Below, one piece after another: positions 32,803-52,982 of a stretch of 64,000 nucleotides of DNA. The DNA lies in assembly GCA_021323655.1 (NCBI GenBank), contig JAJPKO010000018.1, positions 62,001 through 126,000 on the forward strand. Direction: 5' to 3'. The stretch's first letter is position 1, and each line of letters opens with the position of its first letter. A program made the translations under genes and the position numbers. Origin of the DNA: Acidobacteriaceae bacterium. Lineage in GTDB: Bacteria; Acidobacteriota; Terriglobia; Terriglobales; Acidobacteriaceae. Under the pieces are notes generated by a model. The model worked only from the letters and a program-made list of their open reading frames with translations. It had not been told where the DNA came from and did no database searches.

Positions 32803-32805
32803 TCT

Positions 32806-32834: not shown

Positions 32835-32864
32835 GAACCAACTCTCAGAGGCTAGGAACAATCC

Positions 32865-32989: not shown

Positions 32990-33364
32990 CTAACGCCCTC
33001 GGAGCCGCGCCAGCTGTCTACGATCGCGTTTGGAGGGCCTTCCTTCAAGAAAATCGAATTGAGGCATCGCCCTTCGTTCCTCGGCGAGCTTCTGGCGAAG
33101 CTCGCGGCTGGCCTCTGTCTCCTTGTAAAGCGTCTGAGCGGCGGAAGCCGGGCCGCGCACCTCGCTCAATTGCAGAACTTCGACCTGGAACTCACCACTG
33201 TCGTTCTTGATTTGCAGCAGGTCGCCCATACGCACTTCACGTGCCGGTTTGGCTGGCTGGCCATTCGCACTGATCCGGCCCAGCTCACACGCCCGTGAGG
33301 CAAGCGCGCGGGTCTTGAAGAATCGCGCAGCCCACAACCATTTGTCGATGCGTACACCAGTCAT
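32990..33364 (-). CDS. S4-domain RNA-binding protein, Hsp15-like
   Basis: Taking ATG 33364 gives 124 residues beginning MTGVRIDKWLWAARFFKTR, the canonical S4/Hsp15 start; a longer frame adds 42 residues that overlap the region upstream without family character. The S4 motif continues AELGRISANGQPAKPAREV-like with basic residues, followed by a C-terminal arm KLAEERRAMPQFDFLEG. Hsp15 in E. coli returns peptidyl-tRNA-blocked 50S subunits to translation. The product here is of similar size. Confidence 0.88.
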   Translation of the reverse strand: MTGVRIDKWLWAARFFKTRALASRACELGRISANGQPAKPAREVRMGDLLQIKNDSGEFQVEVLQLSEVRGPASAAQTLYKETEASRELRQKLAEERRAMPQFDFLEGRPSKRDRRQLARLRGR

Positions 33365-33398
33365 CCAGTGAAATTGTAATGGACGGACCACAGGGCCT

Positions 33399-34724
33399 TC
33401 AGACGCGCGGTTCCCAGCCCTTCTCATAAGTGCGGCGGCGCAGTTTCGTTGCCTCTTCGTCGCCGACAAAGGCGCTGGTTGCAGGATCAAGCTTCAGTTC
33501 GCGCTGCAGTTCCCAGGCGATGTTGGACATGAGCAGAATGCCGACCGAGATGCTGGCGTCTTCGATTGGTGAATCGAGCTTCGCTGCGGTACGGATGCCA
33601 TCCATCAGGTTCTTGAAGTGCAGCTGGGTCATTGAATCGCTGCCGACAAGGTCTGCGCTCGATGTTTTGCCTGCTTTGGGGACGCGATACTGGTCGATGA
33701 GCTTGCCATGCAGATCGCGGACTTCATATCCGTCTCGGTCCACGATGACTGTGCCCTCGGTGCCGTGAATCGCTGAGCCGCGGTCCCGATCGTAAAGCGG
33801 CATTCCGTTGCAGGACATGTTCTCCCAGGAAATCATCTTGTCGCCATACTCAAAGCTGGTGACGAGCGTGTCGTAGAACTGCCAGTCATCTTTGAACTGG
33901 TAGCGGCCTCCGGAAGAGGTGATACGCTCGGGCCATTTTGCATCGAGCGCCCAGCGACATACGTCAACTTCGTGCGTTCCGTTATTCAACGCCTCGCCTG
34001 TGCCATAAATGCGGAGCCAGTGCCAGTTGTAGGGGTGAATGTTGTCCTTATATGGGCGGCGCGGAGCAGGGCCTTGCCACAGGTCCCAGTCGAGGTTGGG
34101 CGGGACAGGCACCACTTTACCTGTGCCCATGGATTTCCGGGTGTTGCTATACCAGGCCTTAGCGAAGTAAGCGCGACCGATGAGGCCGGAGTGGATTTTC
34201 TGGACAATCTCGATGGTGTGCGGTGAAGAGCGCTGCTGGTTGCCCATCTGCACCAGCTTGTTGTATTTCTTCTGCGCCGCAACCAGCAGCTCGCACTCAT
34301 GCACGTTGTGGCTGCACGGCTTTTCCACGTACACATGCTTGCCGGCTTCGAGGGCAAGGATCGCCATAGGCGTATGCCAGTGGTCGGGCGTGGCAATGGT
34401 GAGCGCGTCCACGTCTTTTGATTCGAGGGTCTTGCGAAAGTCCTGGTCGGCCTGTGGGGCGGAGCCGGTGACCTTTTCCACAAAGCCCGCGTACTTCGCC
34501 AGGATGTTCTTGTCCACATCGGCCACATGCGTAATGCGCGCTGTGTCGCGGTTTGCATGCAGTCCGTCAAAATGCGCATAGGCGCGGCTGTTCAGACCGG
34601 CGACGGCGAAATTGATGCGCTCGTTTGCCCCGACAATCTGCGAATAGCTCTTCGCAGTTGTAGCAACGGCAATTCCGGCTGTGGTGGAGGCGAGTCCCTT
34701 GGCAAATTCGCGGCGTGTGAACAT
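33399..34724 (-). CDS. Gfo/Idh/MocA family oxidoreductase with Tat signal
   Basis: ATG 34724 follows CTGGAG and starts TRREFAKGLASTTAGIAVA, a twin-arginine signal (TRREFA); the frame to 34802 is longer but unconserved. The 441-residue protein has an N-terminal NAD(P)-binding domain (INFAVAGLNSRAYAH, ALTIATPDHWHTPMAILALE) and the dehydrogenase motif YVEKPCSHN. The C-terminal domain includes NGTHEVDVCRWALD. Exported members act on sugars or glycosides in the periplasm, often by reversible C3 oxidation. Neighbours give no pathway. Confidence 0.9.
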   Translation of the reverse strand: MFTRREFAKGLASTTAGIAVATTAKSYSQIVGANERINFAVAGLNSRAYAHFDGLHANRDTARITHVADVDKNILAKYAGFVEKVTGSAPQADQDFRKTLESKDVDALTIATPDHWHTPMAILALEAGKHVYVEKPCSHNVHECELLVAAQKKYNKLVQMGNQQRSSPHTIEIVQKIHSGLIGRAYFAKAWYSNTRKSMGTGKVVPVPPNLDWDLWQGPAPRRPYKDNIHPYNWHWLRIYGTGEALNNGTHEVDVCRWALDAKWPERITSSGGRYQFKDDWQFYDTLVTSFEYGDKMISWENMSCNGMPLYDRDRGSAIHGTEGTVIVDRDGYEVRDLHGKLIDQYRVPKAGKTSSADLVGSDSMTQLHFKNLMDGIRTAAKLDSPIEDASISVGILLMSNIAWELQRELKLDPATSAFVGDEEATKLRRRTYEKGWEPRV

Positions 34725-34863
34725 GGTTCTCCAGAAAGAATGATTGTAAAGCGTTGAAGGCGCAAAATTACGGCAGCGCTGGCGTGCTCGAAAATTCTGC
34801 AAGAACCAAGCCTACCAGCACCCAGGCCCGATGCGTACCGATAGCGGAAACAAGGGGCGAAAT

Positions 34864-34898
34864 GAAAGAAGCCACCCGGCAACAGGGCGGCTTCTTTC
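34864..34898. terminator. Hairpin terminator, probably for the DUF6599 transcript
   Basis: Arms GAAAGAAGCC (34864-34873) and GGCTTCTTTC (34889-34898) are perfect, with an inner GC-rich part, and are flanked by short A and T runs on both strands. It lies 269 bp beyond the minus-strand gene ending at 35168 and upstream of the oxidoreductase. The remaining 34725-35167 interval shows no gene. Confidence 0.7.
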
Positions 34899-35167
34899 GT
34901 TTAGGGAGAATAGTTCCAACGGAGGCAAAACCATCAGAACTTTCTGGCGAAATACTATGGGCACGCCGGAGGGGTGTCAAGGCAAAATCCCAGAAAGGTG
35001 TAAATCATTTTTTAATCAATCATTTAGATTGAGGAATTTTTAATAGGGAGTCAGGGTCCGCGTTCGCCTTTTGTTCTCCAAACATATGCCTTGTTTCATG
35101 CATGGCCTTTTTTATGTGTGGGTTAGACACACATTGCACCAGGTTTTGTGCAGTGTGCGATCTGGGG

Positions 35168-36280
35168 TCACTTCAATTTGAGCCGGATGAACTGATCGTC
35201 GCTGAGGGAAGACGCCGGTTTGCCTCTCATGCGTCGCACCAGCGCGCGGGCTCCACCGAAAAAGAATCCGAGGATGACAGCTGTGCCGCCGATGATTCCT
35301 GTTAATGCGGCGATGCCCAGAAGCAAGCGTGCTGTCTTCGATGATTCGCTGACATAGCCTTGCGGGCTTTCTACGGTGATGTCAGCGCGGTAATTGACTC
35401 CTTCGAGAAGCTTGTGCGCTTCGCTTGCAGAAAAATTTCCGCTGGTCACGGCGACGATGGGTCCGCTGCGGCGGACCTGAAGACTCTCTTTCAGGCTGTC
35501 AGTGAGCGGCTGCGGCCATTGTGAGTTGCCGCCTGCGTTCAGGAAATCAGTGAGCACCCTGGCGCGATTGATGGCGATCTGCGGTGTCGGATACATCAGC
35601 AGCGTAAGGGTGCCGTTACCGTGTGTGGTGGAATAGTGCGCAGTGACTGCCTCAGCGTCGCGATCGAAAGCTAATTCGTCCGGAGGAAGTACGCCTCCGC
35701 CCTGGCGGTAAGACTCGGTGCCGACGGCATAGCGGACGCTGCTGGCATCGAGCGATGCGGGTGGGAGGTAGCCCGGAAGCGGCGGAGCGATGGAACTGGG
35801 GCCGGAGATGCTGGGCAGGTCCTGTGCCAGCTCGCGCAACTGCGCAGCGGACATGGCGGTGATGTGATCGAAGGTGGCATCTACCAGGGTTGCGCCTTTC
35901 CAGAAGAGCACATGCGAACCGTCGAATGCGCCCTCGCTGCCAATGTCCTCTTTGCGCATCCCAGGACGACGATAAAACGTGAATGCTCCATAGGCGCCGG
36001 TAGCATCCTGAAAGCGGATGGCGCGGACGTTCAACTTGTTGTCCGGTTGAACATAGTTGGCGGAGGCAAACTCAGCAAACCCATACTCGCGCAGGACCGC
36101 GACATTTGCTTGGTCGGCGGCCTCGGCTGCTGTGCTTTGCTGTGCTGGTGCGGACTGGTGCCATCCTGCGAAATCAGAGGGCAGAATGGGAGACTGCTGA
36201 GAAGAAGGCGCGGCCTTTTGCGCCGAAAGCGAGGCAAAGGAGAACAGGGCGAGCGCAATGGAAAGCAAAGGGCGCGACAT
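35168..36280 (-). CDS. DUF6599-type exported protein
   Basis: The 370-residue protein has a signal peptide (LLSIALALFSFASLSAQ) and a body with FAGWHQSAPAQ, REYGFAEFASANYV and DATGAYGAFTFYRRPGM, the pattern I associate with the DUF6599 family common in Acidobacteriota. A C-terminal membrane helix lies at about 320-342 (LLLGIAALTGIIGGTAVILGF) followed by a basic tail (RRMRGKPASS), so most of the chain is periplasmic with a C-terminal anchor. Function unknown. Confidence 0.75.
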   Translation of the reverse strand: MSRPLLSIALALFSFASLSAQKAAPSSQQSPILPSDFAGWHQSAPAQQSTAAEAADQANVAVLREYGFAEFASANYVQPDNKLNVRAIRFQDATGAYGAFTFYRRPGMRKEDIGSEGAFDGSHVLFWKGATLVDATFDHITAMSAAQLRELAQDLPSISGPSSIAPPLPGYLPPASLDASSVRYAVGTESYRQGGGVLPPDELAFDRDAEAVTAHYSTTHGNGTLTLLMYPTPQIAINRARVLTDFLNAGGNSQWPQPLTDSLKESLQVRRSGPIVAVTSGNFSASEAHKLLEGVNYRADITVESPQGYVSESSKTARLLLGIAALTGIIGGTAVILGFFFGGARALVRRMRGKPASSLSDDQFIRLKLK

Positions 36281-36319
36281 AGAGTACTGCCTGTTTTGAG
36301 ACTACCACCGCGTCTTGCT

Positions 36320-37048
36320 TTATGGTTTGGGCTGCGTGGACTTCGCTTCTGGAATGCTTCTGCCAAAACGGTAGGCGAGTCCGATGGAAGCGCGCGTGCT
36401 CCAGCGGCTGTCCTTGAGGAGATCGTTGAACAGATGGTTGTAGACCTGGTCTGCCTGCAGACGTAGAACAATGTGCCGGGTGGCGTTCCAGTCGAAGCCA
36501 CCACCGAAGCCGTAGAAGCTGGCCCAGCTGATTTTATGTCCTGAGGGCGCGAGCTGGGAGACGATGAGTGCGGCAATGGGATCACGCGGATGCGGAGTGG
36601 CCACTTCGCGAATGGCACCGATGTCAGGACGCACAAACAAGGTGACTGGGACGAAGTGCCGGCAATTGAATTGTGTTCCTGCAGCGAATGTCTGGGTAGT
36701 GGAGTCAGTAGGCACGGAGAGTTGATAGCCGGGAGGAAGCAGGCCCTCGAGCGCCAGGTCCTTGAGTGCCGTTGTGATCTGGAGTTGCAGAGAATCAGTG
36801 AGCAGGTTAGCGGTGAGCGAGTTGTGTCCTGTGACTATGGAGTAGTCAAACCCAACGGTCAACATGCGGGTGGCGTTATATCCCGCCTGGAAGTGATAGC
36901 CGTGCTCGGCCAGGTTGAGGCTTGGCGAGTTTAAGAAGGTAAATCCAGAGTAGAGATCGAAGCGCTGGACATCTGTTTGCTGGGCGCTTGAAAGCAGTGA
37001 GCAGAAAAGGAATGCAGTGAGAAGGCCAGTCAGCAGTTTGCTTATCAT
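36320..37048 (-). CDS. Outer membrane beta-barrel protein
   Basis: The 242-residue product has a signal peptide (LLTGLLTAFLFCSLLSSAQ) and alternating hydrophobic/polar strands such as FDLYSGFTFLN, YHFQAGYNATRMLTVGFDYS, ISWASFYGFGGGFDWNATR and TRASIGLAYRFG. The penultimate strand ends in an aromatic residue (YRFG), but a tail of about 15 residues follows. It looks like an OmpA- or OmpW-like eight-stranded barrel. It is in line with the DUF6599 gene downstream, 39 bp apart. Confidence 0.72.
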   Translation of the reverse strand: MISKLLTGLLTAFLFCSLLSSAQQTDVQRFDLYSGFTFLNSPSLNLAEHGYHFQAGYNATRMLTVGFDYSIVTGHNSLTANLLTDSLQLQITTALKDLALEGLLPPGYQLSVPTDSTTQTFAAGTQFNCRHFVPVTLFVRPDIGAIREVATPHPRDPIAALIVSQLAPSGHKISWASFYGFGGGFDWNATRHIVLRLQADQVYNHLFNDLLKDSRWSTRASIGLAYRFGRSIPEAKSTQPKP

Positions 37049-37202
37049 GCAGTCCTCCTTGGGGGCAAAGAACAGCGCAGTTCTGAAAGAAAATCGAGAT
37101 TACTGACAAGAAGGGAGAGTTGGCAAGCGGGAATTTGCAGGTACTGAAACCTTTCTCTGTTTGTGTCCTCGAATGATCAGCCCGACAAAGACAAAATTGT
37201 AG

Positions 37203-38156
37203 TTACAGTTTCGTGATTGCTCTCACCAGGCGGAAATAGCGTTGCGCTTGCTTCACGTCGCGCAGGATTTGCTCCTTTAGCGCTTCGGGCGAGGGGAAGC
37301 GCATTTCAGATCGGATGCGGCGCAGGAAGGTGAGCTCAAGCGGTGTTGTTTTTGAAAGGTCTATCGGGCTGAAGTTCAGCAGATGGGTTTCTACGGCGAA
37401 GGAACCTTCACCGAAGGTTGGGCGATTGCCGATGTTTGTTACGGAATCGAAGGCTGCTACATCGCCGATTTTCATGCGAGTGATATAGACGCCGTTGGCC
37501 GGGAGCAGTTCCGAATACGGGGCAAGATTGATGGTTGGCACCGTTAGCTTAGAGCCGATGCCGCGTCCACGTGCAGGAGTGGAGCGGATGGAAAAAGGCC
37601 GCCCGAGCAGTGCGCGTGCCGCGGTCAGGCTTCCGGACGTGATCAGCTCGCGGACCTTACTGCTGGAAACAGGAAATCCGCGCACGATACGGGTGTGGTG
37701 AGCAATGACGGCGAAGCCCAGATGCTTGCCGAATTCGGCCAGCTCTGCAATGCCGGCCTGCGCCTGATGACCGAAGCGAAAGTTATCGCCCTCGTGGACC
37801 TCCACGGCATGCAGAGCATCGTGGAGCACGTTTTGGGCGAAGGCTTCGGCGGAAAGATGGGAGAACTCCTCCGTAAAGGGCAATACCACGGTGGCGTCGA
37901 GGCCTGTCTGTGCCAGCAGCCGCAGGCGCTCGGGCATGGGAGTAATCAGGCGCGGTGCAACTTCAGGGCGCAGGACGCGCACGGGGTGCGGATCAAACGT
38001 TACGGCGATACATCTGGCGCTGAGCTGGCTCGAACGCTGGCGGACGTGCTCGATAATCCAGCGATGGCCGCAATGTACTCCATCAAAATTGCCGATGGCA
38101 ATGACCGTGGGGCCGTAGCTGGCGGGAACTTGAGAAAGCGAACGAAAGACCTGCAT
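37203..38156 (-). CDS. ribF: Bifunctional riboflavin kinase / FAD synthetase
   Basis: RibF converts riboflavin to FMN and then FAD. The adenylyltransferase domain (about 1-185) shows IGNFDGVHCGHRWII and VTFDPHPVRVLRP, with SSSKVRELI near its end. The kinase domain (about 190-310) has ARGRGIGSKLTVPTINL and TNIGNRPTFGEG. The length of 317 is normal. It starts 2 bp after the stop of the PhnP-like gene and is clearly in its operon. Confidence 0.96.
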   Translation of the reverse strand: MQVFRSLSQVPASYGPTVIAIGNFDGVHCGHRWIIEHVRQRSSQLSARCIAVTFDPHPVRVLRPEVAPRLITPMPERLRLLAQTGLDATVVLPFTEEFSHLSAEAFAQNVLHDALHAVEVHEGDNFRFGHQAQAGIAELAEFGKHLGFAVIAHHTRIVRGFPVSSSKVRELITSGSLTAARALLGRPFSIRSTPARGRGIGSKLTVPTINLAPYSELLPANGVYITRMKIGDVAAFDSVTNIGNRPTFGEGSFAVETHLLNFSPIDLSKTTPLELTFLRRIRSEMRFPSPEALKEQILRDVKQAQRYFRLVRAITKL

Positions 38157-38158
38157 GG

Positions 38159-38956
38159 CTATAGCTCAAATGGAATGCGAAGTCTGTCATAAGCGAGGCG
38201 GACGTGCGGAGGAAGCTCATTTTCTGTTTCGGCGTGGTGAAGATCATGCGAGATGTGCGTGAACCACGCGCGCCGGGGTTGCAGGACCTCAATCCAGTGC
38301 AGGGCCTCCTCAATATTTGCGTGACTGGGGTGCGGCTTTTTGCGGAGCGCATCCATAATGACAATGTCCAATCCCTGAAGCAGCGGTAGACTCACGTCCG
38401 GAATGCGGTTCATGTCTGTGAGGTAAGCGGCGTTGCCGAAGCGAAAGCCCGCAGCTTCCTGTTCGCCATGGATCAGAGGCACGCGCTGGAACGTCACTCC
38501 CTGAACCTCGACGGATTTGGTCCCCTCCAGACGGTTCATCTTTACTCGCGCTCGCGTTGGATATGTCGACTCAGGAGAAAAGGTATAGTCGAAGACCTTT
38601 TCGATGATGCTCGCTGAGAAATCGTCGGCGTAAAGAGGAATGTGCCCGTTCGGGTGATGAAAGCTGAGCGGACGCAGGTCATCGAGACCCAGAATATGGT
38701 CAGCGTGCGAATGCGTGTAAAGCACAGCATCTATATGGCGAATGTTTTCCCGCATGGCCTGCATGCGGAAGTCGGGGCCGGTGTCAATCAGAACACAGTG
38801 ATCTTCCCACTGCACGGCAACGGACGGACGCGTGCGCTTGTCCCGCGGGTCGAGCGAAGTGCAGACGTGGCACTCGCATCCGAGCGTAGGTACGCCCATG
38901 GATGTGCCGCTGCCGAGTATGGTGAGAGTGGCTTGCATAGAAAACAGGTCCTGCAC
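38159..38956 (-). CDS. MBL-fold hydrolase, PhnP-like phosphodiesterase
   Basis: The protein (265 residues, or 259 from the ATG at 38938, where MQATLTILGSGTSMGVP begins) has the metal motif THSHADH and the later ligands HGEQ, LTDMNRIPD and HISHDLHH. Close to the start a cluster C-E-CHVC (LGCECHVCTSLDPRDKRTR) matches the structural zinc site of PhnP-type cyclic phosphate dihydrolases and LipB-like lactamases. No phn genes are present, so a broader nucleotide or cyclic phosphate repair role is more likely. It precedes ribF. Confidence 0.88.
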   Translation of the reverse strand: MQDLFSMQATLTILGSGTSMGVPTLGCECHVCTSLDPRDKRTRPSVAVQWEDHCVLIDTGPDFRMQAMRENIRHIDAVLYTHSHADHILGLDDLRPLSFHHPNGHIPLYADDFSASIIEKVFDYTFSPESTYPTRARVKMNRLEGTKSVEVQGVTFQRVPLIHGEQEAAGFRFGNAAYLTDMNRIPDVSLPLLQGLDIVIMDALRKKPHPSHANIEEALHWIEVLQPRRAWFTHISHDLHHAETENELPPHVRLAYDRLRIPFEL

Positions 38957-39007
38957 TTCACTCAGGATGAGAAATCATCAGAGAAAGCGAGGAGCGGCAT
39001 TGTTGGT

Positions 39008-39595
39008 TTACTTCTTTGGCGGCGGTGGTTGATGTGCTGATTTCGAGATTGCATTGGTGATCTCGACATACATCATGCGCAGGTCAAAAAGCGCGTTCTG
39101 CAACAAGCGCTGCTCTTTTTCTGTGAGATTGCCCTTTGTCTTCTGCTCCAGAACAGCGAGCATATCAATACTCTGACGTGCTCCGATGATGTCCACGCGT
39201 GCTTTCTGGCCCGGTTCTGTGCCTGCGCCCATGGCGACCAATGCGGAGAGATAGATGGACTGGATTACATGGTCGAAAGTGACCTCCTGCGGTGCGCCCA
39301 TTCCGGGATTGGCCTGACGCAGCATGTCATCTATTTCGCGCGTGGAGTGCTGATATGCCTGATGCTGGGCAGCAGACTCCTGAGCGGAAGGGCCGGCCGT
39401 TTCCTCGGCTGGCTGCGGCTCTGGCACGGTTGGCTTTGGCTCCTCCTGCTTAGGAGAAGGCATGGTGATGACGCGCGCGCTGGTTTCGGCAGGCTGCTCC
39501 TGCTGCTCGGACTTTGGCGCATCATCGCGCAATTCGCCTTCTGAGGTGAACTTGCGGCGGTCGGTGACGATAAAAGATGGTGGCTTCTCTTCCAT
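39008..39595 (-). CDS. DUF1844 domain protein
   Basis: This 195-residue protein has a disordered Pro/Glu/Gln-rich N-terminal half (to about 95) followed by the DUF1844 core: VTFDHVIQSIYLSALVAMG, then QKARVDIIGARQSIDMLAVL and NLTEKEQRLLQNALFDLRM. DUF1844 proteins are common in Acidobacteriota, often near ygfZ or coaBC genes, and their role is unknown. Here it sits 15 bp downstream of ygfZ and 51 bp before the PhnP-like gene. Confidence 0.88.
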   Translation of the reverse strand: MEEKPPSFIVTDRRKFTSEGELRDDAPKSEQQEQPAETSARVITMPSPKQEEPKPTVPEPQPAEETAGPSAQESAAQHQAYQHSTREIDDMLRQANPGMGAPQEVTFDHVIQSIYLSALVAMGAGTEPGQKARVDIIGARQSIDMLAVLEQKTKGNLTEKEQRLLQNALFDLRMMYVEITNAISKSAHQPPPPKK

Positions 39596-39610
39596 GATTT
39601 CCTTTCCTGA

Positions 39611-40690
39611 TCAGGGCAGGGCCAGCGGTGCAGCCAGAGGCGTTGCTGTGCCTCCGGCATATGTAATTCTGGCCTTGCGTTCCAGAACTTCGACGCGGAC
39701 AAACCCGAGACCGAGGGCCTGGGTAAAGCCCGGCAGCGCGTAATGCGATGCGCTGGTGATTTCGCCGATTGGCTTATCATCGCCTTCGGCATAAAGCTGT
39801 GTGCCCGGTGGCGGTAGTTTGCCATCCAGCGCAAATTGCTGCAATGTGCGGTGGACAGTGGCGCGGGAGCGGATGCGCTCGACAATCTCCTGACCGAGAT
39901 AACAACCTTTGTTGAAGTTCAGCGCGCGCATCTGGTTGGTTTCCTGCGGCAGAGAGCGGTCGGTAATGTCTGTGCCGTACTGGGGTGTTCCTTCATAGAT
40001 GCGCAATGCATCGAGGGCTGCACTTCCGGCCGGCTTTGCTCCCGCACTCGTAAGTGCCTGCCATATTTCTTTGGTGTGTTCTGCAGCAAGCCACAGTTCG
40101 AAGCGCGGAACCAGGACACGCCAGGCGTTGACCAGAGTGACCGGAATACCCTGGATGCTGGTTTGCGCAAAGGCCATTTCTTCCGGTATTTCCACGCCGA
40201 GCGATTCAAGGAGTGCTGGCGCCTCAGGGCCGGCGAGGCCAAGAGTCGTATCTGCTGCGTCTAACTCCTGTAGCTCCACATCATCCATGATGATGAAGTG
40301 GTCGAGGTGGGCAAGCAGGCGAGGTGATTGCTGGCGGTCGGTTTCAAAAATGTAATGGTCAGGCGAGCGGAACACCCAGCCGTCTCCCTGAATACGCCCC
40401 TGGGCATTCAGAACAAAGCTGTAGAGCCCGGTACCTTCGGCCATGTCGCGTGTGTTATTGGTGACCATTCCGTTGAGCCAGCGCACGCGATCTTTTCCTG
40501 TAATACGGATGCGTGTGAGGTACCCGAGATCGTAGATCGCGGCGGAGTGCATCAGGTGGCCGAGTTCGGTGGAGCAGTCTTCAAAAGACCGCGGGGTGAG
40601 CCGACCGAGGTGCATCTGGAGGTCAGGCGTGACGCCGAGAGCGGCCAACGGGGTGCGTTCGTTCTCAACCAATGGTGGCGTTTGGCCCAT
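39611..40690 (-). CDS. ygfZ: tRNA-modifying folate-binding protein YgfZ
   Basis: YgfZ is a GcvT-related folate-binding protein needed for Fe-S enzyme maintenance, including MiaB. The diagnostic motif KGCYLGQE is at 261-268, with the active cysteine at 263, followed by IVERIRSRATVHR. The N-terminal fold (YLTRIRITGKDRVRWLNGMV) is also typical. Length 359 is slightly above E. coli (326). It is the first gene of a minus-strand run ending with ribF, and is divergent from the HELTH peptidase with only 32 bp between starts. Confidence 0.93.
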   Translation of the reverse strand: MGQTPPLVENERTPLAALGVTPDLQMHLGRLTPRSFEDCSTELGHLMHSAAIYDLGYLTRIRITGKDRVRWLNGMVTNNTRDMAEGTGLYSFVLNAQGRIQGDGWVFRSPDHYIFETDRQQSPRLLAHLDHFIIMDDVELQELDAADTTLGLAGPEAPALLESLGVEIPEEMAFAQTSIQGIPVTLVNAWRVLVPRFELWLAAEHTKEIWQALTSAGAKPAGSAALDALRIYEGTPQYGTDITDRSLPQETNQMRALNFNKGCYLGQEIVERIRSRATVHRTLQQFALDGKLPPPGTQLYAEGDDKPIGEITSASHYALPGFTQALGLGFVRVEVLERKARITYAGGTATPLAAPLALP

Positions 40691-40722
40691 GACAAAATTA
40701 TAGTCGGGCGAGGATTTTTAGA

Positions 40723-42225: not shown

Positions 42226-42353
42226 CGCCATTCCGCTGTCACGCATAACGCAAGGGGGGCGAACTCTCGTAAACGCTTGTCTGGCCGAGGAGTTGCTCCT
42301 AAGAATAGACATACGCCGGCTCCTGGAATGAGGATGGATACGGGCAGAATTTG

Positions 42354-43271: not shown

Positions 43272-43280
43272 GGAACATTC

Positions 43281-44216
43281 ATGGCGATTCTGGTGGTGGG
43301 CAGTGTTGCGTTTGACAGCATAGAGACGCCTTCGGGCAAGGCGGAGCGCTGCCTTGGCGGGGCAGCTACGTACTTTTCGCTCTCTGCCAGTTACTTTACC
43401 GATGTGCGGGTAATCGCGGTAGTGGGCGAGGACTTTACGGCACAGGAAGAAGACGTGCTGAAGCGGCGCGGCATTGATACCAGAGGTCTGGAGCATGTTG
43501 CGGGCAAGAGTTTCTTCTGGCGCGGGTCATACATGAAGAACCTGAATGAAGCCCAGACCCACGAGACACAACTGAACGTCTTTGAGAGCTTTTCGCCGAA
43601 GATTCCGGTCGAGTACGCGGATTCGGAATTTCTTTTTCTGGCGAACATTGATCCGGTGTTGCAGGAGACTGTCCGCAAGCAAATGCCGAAGGTACGCATG
43701 GTGTGCGGCGACACGATGAATTACTGGATCACCGGGCATCGTGAAAATCTCGAAAGAGTGCTGAAAGGGCTGGATGGCCTGCTGATTAATGACGGCGAGG
43801 CCAAGCTGCTGGCGGCGGACAACAATCTGGTGCGCGCGGCGGAAAAAATTCTGAGGATGGGGCCGAAGAGCCTTATCGTGAAGCTCGGCGAATACGGAGC
43901 GACCGCCTTCTTCAGCGACCGGCTCTTTCCGGGAGAATCAAAGCATCTTTCGCTCCCGTTCCGCGCTCCTGCGCTGCCGTTGAGCGAGGTGGTGGACCCG
44001 ACGGGCGCGGGTGATTCCTTTGCCGGCGGGTTCTTCGGGTATCTGGCTTCACAGAAAGAAGTGACTCTGGCAGTATTCAAGCGCGCAATGTTTTATGGCG
44101 GCGTGATGGGTTCTTTTGCCGTGGAGCGTTTTGGCACAGAACGGTTGCAGAAACTGACGCGCGAAGAAATTGAGCAGCGCTTTGCGCTGTTCCGCGAGTT
44201 GTCTCACCTTGATTGA
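43281..44216 (+). CDS. PfkB-family carbohydrate/nucleoside kinase
   Basis: The 311-residue kinase has the second PfkB signature DPTGAGDSFAGGF with the catalytic Asp (about 241-253) and a Gly-rich start ILVVGSVAFDSIETPSG, LGGAATYFSLSASYF. Substrate is open: the C-terminal motif is shared by ribokinase, adenosine kinase and fructokinase. Immediate coupling to mtnP suggests a purine nucleoside or 5-methylthioribose-type substrate, which is inference. Its stop overlaps the start of the next gene. Confidence 0.88.
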   Translation: MAILVVGSVAFDSIETPSGKAERCLGGAATYFSLSASYFTDVRVIAVVGEDFTAQEEDVLKRRGIDTRGLEHVAGKSFFWRGSYMKNLNEAQTHETQLNVFESFSPKIPVEYADSEFLFLANIDPVLQETVRKQMPKVRMVCGDTMNYWITGHRENLERVLKGLDGLLINDGEAKLLAADNNLVRAAEKILRMGPKSLIVKLGEYGATAFFSDRLFPGESKHLSLPFRAPALPLSEVVDPTGAGDSFAGGFFGYLASQKEVTLAVFKRAMFYGGVMGSFAVERFGTERLQKLTREEIEQRFALFRELSHLD

Positions 44217-45792: not shown

Positions 45793-46526
45793 TAGCATCA
45801 CGCTCAACAGCCATGACGATTCAAGCTCCTGGACACATGCTGAGCTTTAACGCGGTGGAAGAGGCCATTCTTACGGGCGGCGCCGCAGGACGCCTGCTGC
45901 TGGCTGCATTGCTTGGCGGCATGATTGGCCTTGACCGCGAGTACCATCACAAACCATCTGGCGTAAGAACGAACCTGCTGATCTGTTTTGGTTCGGCGTT
46001 GTTTACCTTCCTGTCCGCTGTTGTTGCGGGCGAAGGCAGCACAAACAAAGGACAAATTGCATCAAACATTGTGCAGGGGATCGGCTTTCTGGGTGCCGGG
46101 TTGATTCTGCATAATCGGGATCGCGTGAGCGGTTTGACGAGTGCTGCGACAGTATGGGCGGTCGCTTCGATTGGAATGGCCTGTGGCGCGGGGCTGTACA
46201 TTCCGGCGGTGTTCTCTGCAGTGCTGGTGTTGGTCGCGCTCGAAGGCGTAGGCGTGCTGGAGCGCTCGGCGAACCTGAAACTTTATGCTGTTATATATGA
46301 GGTGCGCGGTCCGGATGCAGTAAAGATGTCCACGGCGATTTTGCACGCGATGGACAGGATGAAGCGGCGGCTGGTGCATCTGGAGCAGGACAATATCGGC
46401 GAGCTGAACCGCATCAATTTTACGGTTTACGCCACGCGCAAAGGGCATGATCAATTGCAGGCCACGCTGAATGCGTCACCTGTAATTGATGAGGTCCTGA
46501 TGTTTCCTCACGTGGAGGATGATTGA
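45789..46526 (+). CDS. MgtC/SapB family membrane protein
   Basis: Starting at 45789, where ATG overlaps the previous stop as ATGA, the product has 245 residues with five or so membrane helices. The conserved segments LLGGMIGLDREYHHKPSGVRT (split), GFLGAGLI and GLTSAATVWAVASIGMA define MgtC/SapB. A C-terminal ACT-like domain follows (about 160-245). Members of this family act in Mg2+ limitation and intracellular survival in some pathogens; here the role is unknown. The next gene, dapF, starts at TTG 46523, overlapping the stop. Confidence 0.85.
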   Translation: MIASRSTAMTIQAPGHMLSFNAVEEAILTGGAAGRLLLAALLGGMIGLDREYHHKPSGVRTNLLICFGSALFTFLSAVVAGEGSTNKGQIASNIVQGIGFLGAGLILHNRDRVSGLTSAATVWAVASIGMACGAGLYIPAVFSAVLVLVALEGVGVLERSANLKLYAVIYEVRGPDAVKMSTAILHAMDRMKRRLVHLEQDNIGELNRINFTVYATRKGHDQLQATLNASPVIDEVLMFPHVEDD

Positions 46527-47326
46527 TTCGGTTTGTAAAGGCACATGCCTGCGGCAACGATTTTCTGGTGGTTGAAGCGAGGCAGATCAGCGCGGAAAGG
46601 CAGCGCGAGATGGCGATTCATCTTTGCGCGCGCAATACCGGAATTGGCGCGGATGGCGTTGAGTATCTGGAGTGGACAGGAGAACGCGCCGGACGGATTC
46701 GACTGTTCAATGCGGATGGCTCGATCGCGGAAATTTCTGGCAATGGAACGCGTTGCGTGGCGGCATGGATGGCGCATGAGAAGGGCCTCCAATGCGGAGA
46801 CATTCTGACGCTTGAAACGGATGCGGGGCCTCGGGAGTGCCGCATTGTGGATGCGTCCAGCAGCCACTATCAGATTGCATCGCGCATGGGTATACCGGAG
46901 ATCAGCATGCGCAGCGTGGATTTGAATGGAAAGCAGGTTGAGGGTGTGGTGGTATCGGTTGGCAATCCACATTTTGTCATCTTTGTGCCGGACGGGTCCT
47001 TCACCATTCTTGGCAGAAGCTGGCAGGAGATTGGGCAGGATATCTGCTTTCATCCTGATTTTCCGCAGCAAACCAATGTTGAGTTTGTCCATATTCTGAA
47101 TGTGAATGAAATAGAGTTTCGCATTTTTGAGCGCGGCGTCGGGCCGACGGCATCATCTGGGACGGGCGCGTGCGCATCAGCGGTGGCAACGATCTCGCAG
47201 CGCGGAGGAGCGAAGCACCTGCTGGCGCGCTCCCTTGGCGGTGAACAGCGGGTGGAGTGGGACCGTACAGGTGAAATTCTGCTTACCGGACCAGCGGAGC
47301 TGATTGCGCAAGGTGAGGCGTTCTGA
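46523..47326 (+). CDS. dapF: Diaminopimelate epimerase
   Basis: DapF converts LL-DAP to meso-DAP for lysine and peptidoglycan. The start is a TTG at 46523 preceded by GGAGG, and the stop overlaps ldcA by one base. Catalytic cysteines are C78 in SGNGTRCVA and C217 in SSGTGACASA. The N-terminal KAHACGNDFLVVEA and the GNPHFVIFV region are typical. Length 267 is normal. No other dap gene is here; the link is to peptidoglycan enzymes downstream. Confidence 0.95.
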   Translation: MIRFVKAHACGNDFLVVEARQISAERQREMAIHLCARNTGIGADGVEYLEWTGERAGRIRLFNADGSIAEISGNGTRCVAAWMAHEKGLQCGDILTLETDAGPRECRIVDASSSHYQIASRMGIPEISMRSVDLNGKQVEGVVVSVGNPHFVIFVPDGSFTILGRSWQEIGQDICFHPDFPQQTNVEFVHILNVNEIEFRIFERGVGPTASSGTGACASAVATISQRGGAKHLLARSLGGEQRVEWDRTGEILLTGPAELIAQGEAF

Positions 47327-48252
47327 TGCTGAAACCCGCTGCGGTTGCTCCAGATGCACGTGTGGCCGTGATTGCTCCGGCCAGCTCATCGAAACCCGAG
47401 CGGCTGGTGCGGGGTATTGAGGCGCTGCGCGCGCGTGGATATGATGCCGGGTTCGGCCAATTTGCGCAGGGGCGGCTTGCCCCCTATTTTTCCGGGACCC
47501 CAGAGGAGCGGCTCGCGGATCTTCATGCTGCTTTTGCTGATCCGGAGGTGCGGGCCATCTTCTGTACGCGGGGCGGATACGGGTCGAATTATCTGCTGGA
47601 AGACCTGGACCTCGACGTCGTGCGGGAGAATCCCAAGCCGCTCTTTGGATACAGCGATCTGACGGCGCTGCAGACGTGGCTCCTGGATGAGACGGGCCTG
47701 GTCGCTTTTCACGGCCCGATGGTAGCGGCTGATTTCGCAGTAGACAACGGTGTACACGACGCGAGTCTGGATGCGGCGCTGGATGGGGACCTGATTTCTA
47801 TTGGCGCCGCTGAGGGATTGCGCGTGCTGAAACCTGGCCGGGCACAGGGCACGATGTATGGGGGCTGCCTAAGTATCCTGACGTCAACGCTGGGAACGCG
47901 CTTTGCGCCGCAGACGGAAGGGAAGCTGTTGTTTCTGGAAGATGTGGGCGCGAAGCCTTATCAGATTGACCGGATGCTGCGACAGATGGTGCTGGCCGGA
48001 AAGTTTGATGGCGCGACGGGGTTCATTTTTGGAGAGATGCTGGAATGTGCATCGCCGGGAGCACCTTCGGACCTGGTGGCGCAGGTGATTCTGCGCGTGC
48101 TCGATTGGTTTGATGGGCCAATCGCGATCGGGCTGAGATCAGGCCATGTTTCGCACGGCAATGTGACGCTTCCATTGGGGATTGAGGCCGAACTGATGCT
48201 GGAGGATGTTCCGCGGTTGCGGTATCTTGAGGCGGCAGTAGAGAGTGAGTGA
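47326..48252 (+). CDS. LD-carboxypeptidase, S66 family
   Basis: The 308-residue protein has VAVIAPASSSKPERL, the TRGGYGSNYLLEDLD strand-loop and PLFGYSDLTALQTWL with the probable nucleophile S110. The C-terminal half carries LLFLEDVGAKPYQIDRML and GFIFGEML. S66 carboxypeptidases cut the terminal D-Ala from murein tetrapeptides (LdcA) or hydrolyse microcin C (MccF). Coupling with dapF and proximity to mpl favour LdcA. No signal peptide is seen, consistent with a cytoplasmic recycling role. Confidence 0.9.
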   Translation: MLKPAAVAPDARVAVIAPASSSKPERLVRGIEALRARGYDAGFGQFAQGRLAPYFSGTPEERLADLHAAFADPEVRAIFCTRGGYGSNYLLEDLDLDVVRENPKPLFGYSDLTALQTWLLDETGLVAFHGPMVAADFAVDNGVHDASLDAALDGDLISIGAAEGLRVLKPGRAQGTMYGGCLSILTSTLGTRFAPQTEGKLLFLEDVGAKPYQIDRMLRQMVLAGKFDGATGFIFGEMLECASPGAPSDLVAQVILRVLDWFDGPIAIGLRSGHVSHGNVTLPLGIEAELMLEDVPRLRYLEAAVESE

Positions 48253-48286
48253 AATGTTGATGCCAGGCGGGTGCGCTTCATTCCCT

Positions 48287-48360
48287 CCCATCCTTTACTG
48301 CGCAAAGAATGTGACACCCGGTTGAAGGCAGGTCTTTCGGCTGCGCTTCAGGATGACAAG
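48287..48360 (-). repeat. Degenerate GGGTGCCCCA palindrome plus a second dispersed repeat
   Basis: On the minus strand 48319-48287 reads GGGTGTCACATTCTTTGC then CAGTAAAGGATGGG, a diverged copy of the 33-bp element in mnmG. At 48328-48360 minus-strand CTTGTCATCCTGAAGCGC and AGCCGAAAGACCTGC look like another intergenic repeat of the CATCCTGAGCG class. Both fall in the 131-bp ldcA-mpl gap. Confidence 0.7.
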
Positions 48361-48383
48361 AACAGATAGGCACAAGATTACAA

Positions 48384-49802
48384 ATGCAGAGTAAACATAT
48401 ACATCTGATTGGGATTTGCGGCACAGCAATGGCTTCTCTCGCAGGATTGCTGCAACTGAAGGGGCATCGCGTTACTGGATCAGACCAGGCGGCATATCCG
48501 CCGATGTCTGATTTGCTGCGCAGCCTGCGGATTCCGGTAGCAGAGCCGTTTTCCGAAGAGAACCTGAAGCCACATCCGGATCTGGTCATTGTGGGGAATG
48601 CAATTTCGCGCGGCAACACCGAACTCGAATATGTACTGGACCATCGGCTGCCATTCACTTCGCTCGCCGCGCTGATACACTATGAGTTTTTGCGAGGGCG
48701 CGAGTCTCTGGTCGTGGCCGGAACGCACGGCAAAACAACGACGACTTCCATGCTGGCCTGGATTTATGAAGTGGCGGGGCTGGCTCCTTCGTTTCTGATT
48801 GGTGGTGTGGCGGAGAACTTCGGAACGAGCTTTCAGCTACATGAGAGTAAGCCCTTCATTCTGGAAGGAGACGAGTATGATACAGCCTTTTTCGATAAAG
48901 GCCCGAAGTTCATGCATTATTTTCCGGATGCGCTGGTTCTGACGCATGTAGAGTTTGACCATGCGGACATTTATCGCGATCTGGAACAGGTGAAGACGGC
49001 CTTTCAACGGCTGGTGAACCTTGTTCCGCGGCGCGGACGTATTGTGGCCTACGATGGCGACCCCAATGTAAGTGAGTGCGTGTCTCGCGCCTTCTGCAAA
49101 GTGGAGCGTTACGGGTTTGCTCCTGATTCCGCATGGCGGACGGAAAATCTGAATTTTGCCGAAGGTCAGACGCATTGGAACGTTCTGCATGATGGAAAAC
49201 CGTGGGCGGATCTCACGCTGAGTATGGCCGGTGAGCATAACGCTTTGAATGCAACCGCGGCTGCTGCGCTGGCTGCGGGCAATGGCGTTCCGGTGAGCGT
49301 GATTCAAAGGGCGCTGGCCACGTTCAAGAGCGTAAAGCGCAGGCTCGAGGTCCGGGCTGTGGTGGATGGCATTACGATCATTGATGATTTTGCGCATCAT
49401 CCTACGGCGATCCGCGAGACGCTGCGTGCTCTGCGGGCTGCGCATCCTGATGCGCGTTTGTGGGCCGTGCTTGAGCCGCGCTCGAATACACTGCGGCGAA
49501 ATGTTTTTGAGCGCGAGCTGGTAGAGAGTCTTTCGCTGGCAGACCGCATTGTGCTTGCCGGTGTCTTTAAGCTGGAGAGCATTCCGGAGGGTGAGCGGCT
49601 GCATCCGGAGGCCGTTGTTGCCGGACTCAGGCAGACAGGAAAGGATGCGGCGCTGTTTGCGAACGCAGACACGATTGTCGCAGCGATTACACCTGAGCTG
49701 CGGGCAGGTGATGTGGTGGCCATTCTCTCAAATGGTGGATTTGACGGCATCTATGAGAAACTGCCGCGGGCCCTGGAAGCGAGGACGCTCGTTCGTTTCT
49801 GA
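48384..49802 (+). CDS. mpl: UDP-N-acetylmuramate:tripeptide ligase Mpl
   Basis: Mpl joins the recycled peptide L-Ala-gamma-D-Glu-meso-DAP to UDP-MurNAc. The 472-residue Mur ligase has an N-terminal IHLIGICGTAMASLAGLL UDP-binding loop, the ATP P-loop VAGTHGKTTTTSM, and the SMAGEHNALNATAAAALA and IIDDFAHHPTAI motifs, with the late VLEPRSNTLRRNVFE typical of Mpl rather than MurC. It follows ldcA by 131 bp. Confidence 0.95.
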   Translation: MQSKHIHLIGICGTAMASLAGLLQLKGHRVTGSDQAAYPPMSDLLRSLRIPVAEPFSEENLKPHPDLVIVGNAISRGNTELEYVLDHRLPFTSLAALIHYEFLRGRESLVVAGTHGKTTTTSMLAWIYEVAGLAPSFLIGGVAENFGTSFQLHESKPFILEGDEYDTAFFDKGPKFMHYFPDALVLTHVEFDHADIYRDLEQVKTAFQRLVNLVPRRGRIVAYDGDPNVSECVSRAFCKVERYGFAPDSAWRTENLNFAEGQTHWNVLHDGKPWADLTLSMAGEHNALNATAAAALAAGNGVPVSVIQRALATFKSVKRRLEVRAVVDGITIIDDFAHHPTAIRETLRALRAAHPDARLWAVLEPRSNTLRRNVFERELVESLSLADRIVLAGVFKLESIPEGERLHPEAVVAGLRQTGKDAALFANADTIVAAITPELRAGDVVAILSNGGFDGIYEKLPRALEARTLVRF

Positions 49803-49805
49803 GTC

Positions 49806-50516
49806 ATGCTTTCAACCTTCGCCGTTTTACTGACTTATCTTCTCTTTGGCATTCCTGCTGCGATAGTGGGGCTGCCATGGACGCTGATGACTAGCGACAT
49901 TTCTCTGCTGTATCGCTGGTCCATGTGGATCGCCAGGAGCGGTATCCGGGCCGCTGGAATTCGCGTCGAGGTGGAGGGCCTTGAGCGCCTGGATCCAGAG
50001 CAGCGATACATTTTCATGTCAAACCACGTTTCCAATCTGGATCCGCCGATTCTGCTGCCACTGATTCCGGGGAGAACGTCGGTCTTCCTGAAGCGGTCAC
50101 TGATGAAGATTCCCGTTCTGGGGTATGCGATGCGGCTCGGAGACTTTATTCCTGTGGACCGCGATGGACGAGTGGAGAGCGCGAAGCAGAGTGTGGAGAA
50201 AGGCAGGGAAGTTCTTGCTTCAGGTCTCCAGGTAACTACGTTTGTGGAAGGGACCCGCTCGCGGGATGGCCGTCTGCTTCCCTTTAAGAAAGGCCCTTTT
50301 TATCTGGCCATCGAAACAGGTGCTCCGGTGGTGCCCGTCTCGATTTCGGGCACGGAAAGCATGATGAAGAAGGGCAGTATTCGCATTGCGCCGGGTACAG
50401 CACATGTGGTGTTTCATTCACCAGTGTGGCCGCATGATTATGCCACGCGCGAGGAACTGATGACGGCGGTGCGTTCTGCGATTGCCTCGGGCCTGCCGGA
50501 ATGGATGATCCGATAG
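49806..50516 (+). CDS. plsC: 1-acyl-sn-glycerol-3-phosphate acyltransferase
   Basis: The catalytic motif N73-H-V-S-N-L-D79 is followed by the FVEGTRS motif and PVVPVSISGTE, as in PlsC. The N-terminal 25 residues are a membrane segment. Length 236 is normal. It makes phosphatidic acid from lysophosphatidate and acyl-ACP or acyl-CoA. It begins 3 bp after mpl. Confidence 0.93.
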   Translation: MLSTFAVLLTYLLFGIPAAIVGLPWTLMTSDISLLYRWSMWIARSGIRAAGIRVEVEGLERLDPEQRYIFMSNHVSNLDPPILLPLIPGRTSVFLKRSLMKIPVLGYAMRLGDFIPVDRDGRVESAKQSVEKGREVLASGLQVTTFVEGTRSRDGRLLPFKKGPFYLAIETGAPVVPVSISGTESMMKKGSIRIAPGTAHVVFHSPVWPHDYATREELMTAVRSAIASGLPEWMIR

Positions 50517-50542
50517 CTTCCATTTTCGCCTGATTTTCGCCT

Positions 50543-51865
50543 ATGCTTAATGGCATGCAGTTGCCTGTTCCAGGACTGGTTCGCTGGCTTTATCTTGACC
50601 TGAACTCGTATTTCGCGTCGGTCGAGCAGCAATTGCGTCCCGAGTTACGCGACCGGCCCATAGCAGTCATTCCTGTGGAAGCTGAGACGACCTGCTGTAT
50701 TGCAGCCAGTTACGAGGCGAAAGCATTTGGAGTCAAGACAGGCACGGTAGTCAAAGAGGCGCGGCGACTATGCCCTGAAATTATGTTTGTGCCTGCGCGG
50801 CATAAGGAATATGTGCGCTTCCATCATCTTGTGCTGGAAGCTGTCAACCGCTGTACCCCTGTGGAGCGGGTGCTTTCAGTAGACGAGATTGCGTGCCGCC
50901 TGGTGGGCAGGGAATGCAAGCCGGAGAATGCTCTTGCGCTGGCGCGCGAAGTGAAGCAGCGGATACGGATGGATATAGGGGAGTATTTGCGCTGCTCCAT
51001 TGGGCTTGCCCCGAATGAATTGCTCGCCAAGATTGCCACGGACATGCAAAAGCCCAATGGGCTGGTGCGGCTGGATACGAGCGATTTGCCGAAGGCGCTC
51101 TATCCGCTGAAGCTGCGGGACATTCCGGGGATTGGCAGCCGTATGGAAGCGCGTCTGCGGGCGCAAGGCATCCACTCGGTGCAAAGTCTGCTGGAACTGG
51201 ATGCAAAACAGATGCGTTCGGTATGGGGCAGCCTGTATGGTGAGCGCTACTGGTATTGGCTCAGAGGGTATGATTTCGATCAACCCGCGTCCGTTCCGCA
51301 GAGTATTGGGCACCAGCATGTTTTACCACCTGAACTGCGCACCATGCAGAAAGCATTCGCGGTGGCCCAGAAACTGCTGGACCGTGCTACCGCGCGTCTA
51401 CGGGGAAGAGACCTCTGGGCGCGGGGACTTTCTGTCTATATGAGTTTCACCATGGGCCGCGAGAAGAAGATATGGGAGTGTCACACGCGCATGGTAGAGT
51501 CGCAGAATGTTTTTTCCGCGCTGGAAATGCTGAAGAAGATGTGGGCGGATTGTCCTCGGGGAACTCCCACATTTATAGGAGTGGACCTGTACGATCTGGT
51601 TCCTGGCACTCAGCACACAGAGGTCTTTTTTCCTGAAGAGCAGCGGCGGCAGAAACTGGCGCAGGCAATGAATGCGATCCATGCCCAGTTCGGAGAAAAG
51701 GTGCTGTATCTGGGTGGAACGCATGCAGTTCGAAATGCGGCGCCTGCTGCCATTGCTTTTGCTTCGATTCCGGAGAGCCATGAATTTCCTGAAAGCAAAC
51801 CGGCGAAGAATACGCATGGCGAATGGAGGAGCACATCGAAAAAAGCGAAGCGTCCTCCTGCTTAG
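50543..51865 (+). CDS. Y-family DNA polymerase, DinB-like
   Basis: The 440-residue product has the catalytic acidic residues D19 (WLYLDLNSYFASVEQQ) and D114-E115 (LSVDEIA), so it should be active rather than an ImuB-type pseudo-polymerase. The palm and thumb include CSIGLAPNELLAKIATDMQK and DIPGIGSRMEARL. The little-finger region (about 245-345) reads RGRDLWARGLSVYMSF. A basic C-terminal tail ends STSKKAKRPPA. No clear beta-clamp box is evident. Distance to plsC is 26 bp. Confidence 0.9.
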   Translation: MLNGMQLPVPGLVRWLYLDLNSYFASVEQQLRPELRDRPIAVIPVEAETTCCIAASYEAKAFGVKTGTVVKEARRLCPEIMFVPARHKEYVRFHHLVLEAVNRCTPVERVLSVDEIACRLVGRECKPENALALAREVKQRIRMDIGEYLRCSIGLAPNELLAKIATDMQKPNGLVRLDTSDLPKALYPLKLRDIPGIGSRMEARLRAQGIHSVQSLLELDAKQMRSVWGSLYGERYWYWLRGYDFDQPASVPQSIGHQHVLPPELRTMQKAFAVAQKLLDRATARLRGRDLWARGLSVYMSFTMGREKKIWECHTRMVESQNVFSALEMLKKMWADCPRGTPTFIGVDLYDLVPGTQHTEVFFPEEQRRQKLAQAMNAIHAQFGEKVLYLGGTHAVRNAAPAAIAFASIPESHEFPESKPAKNTHGEWRSTSKKAKRPPA

Positions 51866-51984
51866 AGGTTGATGAGCGGTGTTGTTAACAGCGGGGATGC
51901 AGGTGCATTGACAGGCGCCTGTAAGGTTGTCGAAGGCAGACATGCAGCTCGTGATGTTCCCGGGCTCCTGCGGCGGCGTTAGAT

Positions 51985-52650
51985 TTAACCTTGTTTCTGG
52001 AAGAGCGGTGTGAATTCGATTTCGACCACACCATCCAGTTCACCCACGGTTACATCATCCAGCGATTCGACGATCCAGTCGGCGTCTTTCAGGTCCTCTA
52101 CCGTGTGGGAGAAAAGGGTGGCGAGGACCTTGCATCCCGCTGCATGACCGGCCTTTGCTCCCGATGCTGAATCTTCGATGACCAGGCAGTCTTCGGGTTT
52201 CTGGCCGAGGAGGGCTGCGCCTTTGAGATAGGGTTCCGGACTGGGTTTGCCGTGGGTGACCATGTTGCCGGTGATGATGCGTTCCGGGATGGGGACACCG
52301 GCCTGCTTCAGGCGGACGCGAGCGATGCGGTCCGTGGCCGAAGTGACGATGGTCCAGTACTGCTGTGGAAGTGTGTCGAGGATACGGCAAACGCCCTGGA
52401 GGACCTCGATGTCTTCCTTGTCCTCGACCTCGATCTGCTCAATCAGGTTCAGTTCTTCGATGTCGTTGAGGTCGGGGCGGAGAAGGCGCACGGTTTCGAT
52501 GGCGCGGCGGCCGTGTGCCGTCCTGATGGCGAAAGCCGGATCCACACCCCGTTTTTCGGCCCATTTCCGCCAGCTACGCTCGACCGAGCCGAGTGAACTG
52601 ACGAGAACGCCATCCATATCGAAGAGAATTCCGCGGACGTGGAGCTTCAC
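51985..52650 (-). CDS. HAD superfamily hydrolase, beta-phosphoglucomutase-like
   Basis: Motif I is FDMDGVLVSS (residues about 10-19), motif II TSATDRI, motif III GKPSPEPYLKGA and motif IV VIEDSASGAKAG. The helical cap is inserted after motif I, which marks subfamily IA with a C1 cap. It resembles 2-deoxyglucose-6-phosphate and glycerol-3-phosphate phosphatases; substrate unknown. It is convergent with the polymerase, 119 bp away. Confidence 0.88.
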   Translation of the reverse strand: MKLHVRGILFDMDGVLVSSLGSVERSWRKWAEKRGVDPAFAIRTAHGRRAIETVRLLRPDLNDIEELNLIEQIEVEDKEDIEVLQGVCRILDTLPQQYWTIVTSATDRIARVRLKQAGVPIPERIITGNMVTHGKPSPEPYLKGAALLGQKPEDCLVIEDSASGAKAGHAAGCKVLATLFSHTVEDLKDADWIVESLDDVTVGELDGVVEIEFTPLFQKQG

Positions 52651-52689
52651 TTTTGAGCTTTCTCCCTTGGAAGTAGCCGTGAGCGGGTG

Positions 52690-52790
52690 GGAGCGTGCCC
52701 CTCCCTCTCTTTTGTACGGGGGTCGTTTATTTTCGGTAAGTTACAGCTCGTTGTTGTACGGAGGTTTTCTGTTTTCAACGGCTTAAATGT
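52690..52790 (-). repeat. Intergenic repeat module, reverse orientation
   Basis: On the minus strand this region has TAAGCCGTTGAAAACAG, GTAACTTACCGAAAATAAA and a GAGAGGGAGGGGCACGC tail, with two CCGTAC-containing direct units (GTACAACAACG; GTACAAAAGAG). The arrangement echoes 4362-4500. The rest of 52651-52982 has no gene. Confidence 0.5.
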
Positions 52791-52982
52791 AAGTGATTGA
52801 TTCCATTATGCTTGGCTAAGGACAGCACCAGCCACACTCTATACCTGCTTGATTCCAGCATAACATGCAGGCGGTTATTTTTCCGGTAATTCTATGTTTA
52901 AACGACAATGGAACGAAAGTCTCGCCGTGCAGGCTTGAACTGGCGCACCTTCGACGCTTCTGCTCTTCTATATTCAACAGAC

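Follow-up and report, generated by a model that had tools for sequence, protein, structure and literature searches.

How does a stretch of about 20 kb come to carry the opposite strand composition to the DNA on both of its sides? This question is raised by a 64,000-base window, comprising bases 62001-126000 of contig C32 (172,409 bases; JAJPKO010000018.1) in the genome of an Acidobacteriaceae-type bacterium (GCA_021323655.1; 4.59 Mb in 65 contigs). From about 33 to 52.8 kb of the window, here called the block, the forward strand is richer in G than in C, between flanks that are richer in C. The original prediction explained this by an inversion through recombination between dispersed repeats at the block borders. 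Our analysis keeps the inversion in part, and changes how it is likely to have come about. We consider it probable that a native chromosomal piece of about 20 kb was brought, in fairly recent time and by one or more rearrangements, into an orientation opposite to that of its neighbours. Such a rearrangement would be either an inversion, or a move combined with an inversion. Replication-linked mutation could have given the piece its G-rich plus strand while it still lay the other way round, and after the flip this bias would not yet have been overwritten, leaving an island of reversed skew.

That the block has an inverted GC skew, in genes of both directions, was confirmed by 1-kb windows, segmentation, permutations and third codon positions. 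All 1-kb windows within 33.5-52.5 kb were positive (+0.06 to +0.22), and all windows ending by 33.5 kb were negative, save the one at 23.0-24.0 kb (+0.015). Segmentation of the 172-kb contig gave five segments, the outer ends being weakly positive. The block segment (34.0-52.8 kb) had a skew of +0.137, and lay between a segment of -0.090 on the left (87.8 kb, from -53.8 to 34.0 kb in window coordinates) and one of -0.070 on the right (29.6 kb, from 52.8 to 82.4 kb). In permutation tests with four block sizes, 2000 shuffles each, none matched the best positive run, although with 4-kb blocks the highest shuffled score was close to it (1403, against 1476 in the real sequence). Third-position skew was scored on 48 chosen genes (18 in the block, 21 on the left, 9 on the right). 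On the plus strand it was positive in 17 of the 18 block genes, namely 7 of 8 minus-strand and all 10 plus-strand genes, and negative in 19 of the 21 left-flank genes and 7 of the 9 right-flank genes. The skew sign in the block is opposite to that of both flanks, in both gene directions and also at third positions.

The two borders are not equally sharp. The left step is at about 33.4-34.0 kb; the right side is less sharp than had been claimed. A strip of 3.5 kb with a skew of approximately zero (53000-56500) separates the block from the negative right flank, and the best-scoring positive run ends at 55.9 kb. The near-zero strip may be an older segment that has partly re-equilibrated.

A foreign island or a mobile element, inserted with its own composition, would also appear as a delimited stretch of different skew. 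We give this explanation practically no credence, as the GC content of the block (56.8%) is within 2 points of that of the left (58.1%) and right (58.5%) flanks, its genes are mostly 68-91% identical to those of a congener, and no recombinase, integrase or phage family was found among the Pfam matches of the scanned block genes. Furthermore, the central cluster of the block (37.2-50.5 kb), which runs from ribF to an acyltransferase gene that we take to be plsC and includes the genes for diaminopimelate epimerase and a Mur ligase, is collinear in the relatives G035, G019, G034, Acidobacterium sp. S8 and ZG23-2. It is also collinear in G031, where DUF1844 and MgtC have no match, and the contig of G033 ends within it. 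The conservation of the cluster across several genera indicates that the block is native, and neither foreign genes or composition nor an absence from relatives marks it as a genomic island. By ribF, the nearest named relatives are an Acidobacteriales metagenome-assembled genome (75%), Acidobacterium sp. S8 (74%), Paracidobacterium acidisoli (68%) and Acidipila rosea (66%).

The orientation of the block was judged against G001, the sole congener found, which consists of a single contig of 3,686,523 bases. The comparison covered 1.22 of these 3.69 Mb. With thresholds of at least 50% identity and at least 60% coverage, 62 reading frames of C32 were mapped (identity 50-96%, median 82%), and 86 of the 148 called frames had no such match. 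In the block, 18 of the 19 mapped frames have the G001 orientation. In the left flank only 8 of 38 do, the other 30 being reversed, whereas the mapped frames of the right flank (2 of 5 in G001 orientation) are too few to use. The block is therefore placed opposite to its left flank only. When read in the G001 orientation, the skew has the same sign as in G001 in 50 of the 62 frames (left 30/38, block 17/19, right 3/5; r = 0.55), so that skew mostly travels with the DNA. Taken together, the orientation counts and the agreement in sign indicate that block and left flank have opposite orientations, and that the composition of the block records an older orientation. With respect to this one congener, both the opposite orientation and the retained skew are observed. 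Judged by the prevailing sign along the contig, the block would also run against its own replication arm.

The polarity of the block is the commoner one among relatives. In 29 of the 58 relatives with a match we determined the skew of loci of about 4 kb around ribF, each read so that ribF is on the minus strand, and as whole-sequence values rather than third positions. In 22 of them it was positive and in 5 negative, and the other 2 were within 0.02 of zero.

Several observations weigh against a recent reorientation of the block. The composition changes at 33.4-34.0 kb, 0.4-1.0 kb inward of the break in gene order, and on the plus strand the small gene at 32996-33370 still has more C than G (-0.088). 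In 12 of the 62 frames the skew sign differs from that in G001, and one of these is the Y-family DNA polymerase of the block, presumably DinB-like. The cluster has the opposite polarity in G031 and G033. The 62 mapped units are called frames, of which at least one (32392-32841) is antisense to a real gene, that of a 148-aa protein next to the left border, and with about a third of G001 covered, some frames may match a paralogue. Because dnaA is on another contig and C32 is unplaced relative to the origin, the "wrong" side is read from the sign of the longer stretch. Finally, it is not evident that the left border is a fresh break, since the linkage across it, between an MBL hydrolase, the 148-aa protein and ribF, recurs in Acidipila rosea, G034 and G031.

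The features of the block and its flanks are collected in the table below. In the plus-strand arm of the cluster, a 500-aa protein without Pfam match is followed by a PNP-type phosphorylase, a PfkB kinase, a protein with a weak PMT_2 match and MgtC, and then by diaminopimelate epimerase, an LD-carboxypeptidase, the Mur ligase, which we take to be Mpl, and the acyltransferase. The weak beta-barrel match (OMP_b-brl) was under the Pfam cut-off. In the right flank, the gene group at 54.8-61.4 kb is conserved in Acidobacterium sp. S8. No tRNA was found in the window, so that a tRNA-linked insertion was rejected, and no RNA family reached the gathering score there.

Table. Coordinates of the block, its borders and the adjoining genes (window positions; a dot marks features without strand).
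Feature	Position	Strand	Remarks
Left flank	29056..32802		HflX (-), MBL hydrolase 31251-32231 (+), 148-aa protein 32356-32802 (+)
Left border gap	32803..32995	.	Two hairpins, directly 3' of the 148-aa gene
Reversed-composition segment	32996..52650	.	About 19.7 kb; composition changes at ~33.4-34.0 kb (left) and ~52.7 kb (right)
Small conserved protein adjoining the left border	32996..33370	-	84% identity to G001 2247204-2247575; presumably an S4-type RNA-binding protein
Gfo/Idh/MocA-type dehydrogenase (GFO)	33399..34802	-	Adjoins ribF only in the window genome and G001
DUF6599 protein and protein with weak beta-barrel match	35168..37048	-	70% and 77% identity to G001
ribF (FAD synthetase), MBL hydrolase, DUF1844 protein, GcvT-like protein	37203..40690	-	One arm of the conserved cluster
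500-aa protein through acyltransferase	40723..50516	+	Other arm of the conserved cluster
Y-family DNA polymerase (impB/mucB/samB family)	50543..51865	+	Cluster neighbour in the window genome alone, among 20 with a match
HAD hydrolase	51985..52650	-	Final block gene
Right border gap	52651..52907	.	Without significant match to the left gap
Right flank	52908..61415		ATP-dependent DNA ligase, then sigma factor / zf-HC2 / toastrack group, cytidylate kinase, AlkZ-related protein

Did the block flip in place, through repeats at its ends? The palindromes described at 32.8-32.9 kb do exist. The left gap holds two hairpins of the form CCACCCTTT..AAAGGG, at about 32811 and 32876 (32.81-32.83 and 32.87-32.90 kb), and a third copy is found at 20470. 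Two of the three share CCCTTTC(AT/GC)AAAACGAAAGGG. A search of the whole genome with the exact pattern CCACCCTTT-N(2-20)-AAAGGG returned 5 strand matches, which fall at 3 places, every one of them on C32; G001 had none. Being confined to three places on one contig, the hairpins were rejected as dispersed recombination sites. Their positions, after a stop codon or between convergent frames, suggest that they are terminator-like, although they have no clear T-run and are absent from the results of a terminator scan of 31.0-35.5 kb.

Matching repeats at both borders, on the other hand, were not found. The two gaps share no repeat beyond chance, inverted or direct (the best has 15 bases at 87%, E 0.37), and no long repeat of either gap occurs in the 548 kb of the genome searched. 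The proposed recombination between dispersed border repeats was thus not borne out. Nor does the block resemble a site-specific invertible element, as it has no shared inverted sites, and the Pfam matches of the scanned genes include no recombinase.

Gene order leads in the same direction. A simple inversion of 33-52.8 kb in place predicts that the 148-aa gene once adjoined the HAD gene, and the GFO side the ligase. Neither of these reciprocal adjacencies was seen in relatives: in G001 and G019 the genes are far apart or on different contigs, and in G035 the MBL, ligase, DinB and cluster genes lie apart (HAD was not sought in G035). Relative to G001, the gene order breaks after the 148-aa gene and before the one at 32996, and the neighbours of the block come from at least four distant sites of that genome. 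HflX, MBL and the 148-aa gene are collinear and reversed there at 2360.8-2364.4 kb, and the genes of the right border are scattered (DinB at 2.60 Mb, HAD at 0.27 Mb, ligase at 1.65 Mb). In total, the 62 mapped frames fall into 22 collinear runs, a run being defined by the same orientation and a spacing within 10 kb. An inversion in place through inverted repeats would agree with the sharp skew steps at both ends, with the hairpins in the left gap and with the layout in G034. In this relative HAD is placed between the 148-aa gene and ribF, in the predicted orientation, about 5 kb from ribF and about 22 kb from the 148-aa gene, while in the window it occupies the far end of the block; the cluster itself, however, is not inverted in G034. 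Without an inverted repeat pair to join the gaps, and with neighbours of such different origin, we regard this account as unlikely. What stands of the predicted inversion is the opposite orientation to the left flank with its retained skew, and what is not supported is the clean flip between border repeats.

Two side observations concern the same comparison. G001 splits the ribF-plsC cluster between the 500-aa and phosphorylase genes, so that the counterpart of 33.0-42.2 kb is found at 2247-2256 kb and that of 42.4-50.5 kb at 1944-1952 kb. On contig C56 of the window genome, at about 61.3-66.3 kb, neighbours come from G001 1651-1653 and 2314-2317 kb, sites about 660 kb apart. This juxtaposition is another sign of heavy shuffling.

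How old are the two junctions? Conserved gene adjacency across both borders in related genomes had been named as evidence against an inversion, and it was found in part on the left and not seen on the right. In Acidipila rosea, MBL and the 148-aa gene adjoin ribF in the order and orientation of the window, two other genes and then, a few kb further, HflX follow beyond MBL, and there is no change of skew sign. G034 and G031 keep the order and orientation, with about 30 and 37 kb between MBL and ribF, start to start. This recurrence indicates that the left linkage is old, yet the skew step says that its two sides spent time in opposite polarity. For the right border, HAD and the ligase are adjacent in no genome where both were found; HAD was sought in 36 relatives, and among G023-G036 in the stretches read. 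As for the two genes between MBL and HflX in Acidipila rosea, they are located here at 1-2.7 kb of C32, about 90 kb away at the left contig end; in G034, too, one of the two is close to MBL.

An old linkage and a skew step would be reconciled if the left linkage of the family ancestor had been broken up in the genus, the state seen in G001, had stayed so until the skew changed, and had then been remade in the window genome by a reverse inversion; the alternative is a chance rejoining. In G001 the 148-aa gene (2360.8 kb) and the small gene (2247.2 kb) are 113 kb apart in an inverted layout, and inverting the stretch between them yields the junction of the window. The presence of the window order in Acidipila rosea, with no sign change, fits as well. 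However, none of the 75 G001 frames from 2256.4-2360.7 kb matches C32 at E 1e-20, so that one flip is insufficient. Moreover, five called genes (32996-37048) separate the 148-aa gene from ribF here, and none of them mapped to that place in Acidipila. They correspond to four annotated units (the small gene, GFO, DUF6599 and the barrel-like protein) and a doubtful short frame. We therefore hold such a return flip to be rather unlikely. Slightly more doubtful is its extension to recurrent inversion, in which the ribF-side edge of the cluster would be a reused breakpoint, the segment would have flipped away from and back to the neighbourhood of MBL and the 148-aa gene, and the skew would record the earlier state.

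The left border could also be a native replication boundary near an origin-type skew minimum, with a break at the right border only. At 33 kb the skew passes from negative to positive, as it does at an origin, and Acidobacterium sp. S8 switches sign at the same cluster edge, beside a different neighbour. In G001, the phosphorylase-acyltransferase arm (1944-1952 kb) is about 36 kb from dnaA (1907.7-1909.1 kb), with a weak change from -0.014 to +0.045 at 1939 kb. Against this, dnaA of the window genome is on contig C61, and DnaA-box-like sites in the window are not above chance (8, with 6.8 expected). The ribF arm of G001 is 340 kb from dnaA, within one positive segment, and the distance between cluster and dnaA is 0.9 Mb in G031 and about 3.1 Mb by coordinate in G032. 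A replication boundary is thus a most unlikely explanation. The switch in S8, at about 44 kb of its contig C5, is beside a gene whose relative here is at 26.4-29.8 kb of C32.

Very unlikely, too, is an assembly chimera, in which the block would have been wrongly joined in a draft of 65 contigs. Skew breaks are a known sign of misassembly (SkewIT, PMC7717575), but the left linkage is found in a different assembly, that of Acidipila rosea, and the border gaps carry no long repeat in the 548 kb searched. The support from another assembly applies to the left border, not to the right.

Reorientation of a native piece therefore remains our preferred reading, and sign changes of this kind are no rarity in the genome. 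A background sample of 15 stretches of 15-20 kb from elsewhere (291,853 bases, leaving out one 3.9-kb contig and four joined stretches beside dnaA) had 5 strong changes of skew sign. Among its full 20-kb stretches, 5 of 13 hold both a 4-kb bin of at least +0.07 and one of -0.07 or lower. In relatives, for which bin sizes and cut-offs differ slightly from those used for the window genome, we counted 3 sign changes in 136 kb of S8, 4 in 860 kb of G001, and none in the stretches of G035 and G019. These counts indicate that reversed-skew islands are common in the window genome, and less so in some relatives. The inversion is partly supported, as an ordinary rearrangement and as one of several such islands. 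Most likely, the block is a normal scar of chromosome shuffling, not a new kind of element.

The locus serves as an example in which skew and gene order both show a piece of DNA to have retained the strand bias of its former orientation. It also illustrates that members of one genus can be similar (median 82%) and yet share little long-range order in the compared part (22 runs for 62 frames). If the return flip were true, this would be a place to test the reuse of bacterial breakpoints.

How does the block compare with known cases? Reversed skew has been used to infer past inversions (Merrikh and Merrikh 2018, PMC6220195), an approach that is debated (PMC9098844). As in the study of 2018, a stretch with a GC skew opposite to that of its replication arm is read here as a sign of an earlier orientation. 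Unlike their calls, which are based on whole-gene GC skew, ours adds the gene order of G001 and third-position skew, and the critique (PMC9098844) asks for such further backing of skew-based inversion calls. A further difference is that we claim no benefit for the inversion. With the prokaryotic inversion landscapes (PMC5850607) the block shares the theme of inversions that shape bacterial gene order. SkewIT (PMC7717575) likewise deals with local skew disruption at sharp borders, there flagging assembly errors; here, the presence of the left linkage in another genus speaks against such an error at the left border. In the available literature on GC skew, synteny and rearrangement in Acidobacteria, nothing evidently refers to a block of this kind. 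The inference of inversions from reversed skew is known, and what is new is a further instance with the support of gene order and third-position data.

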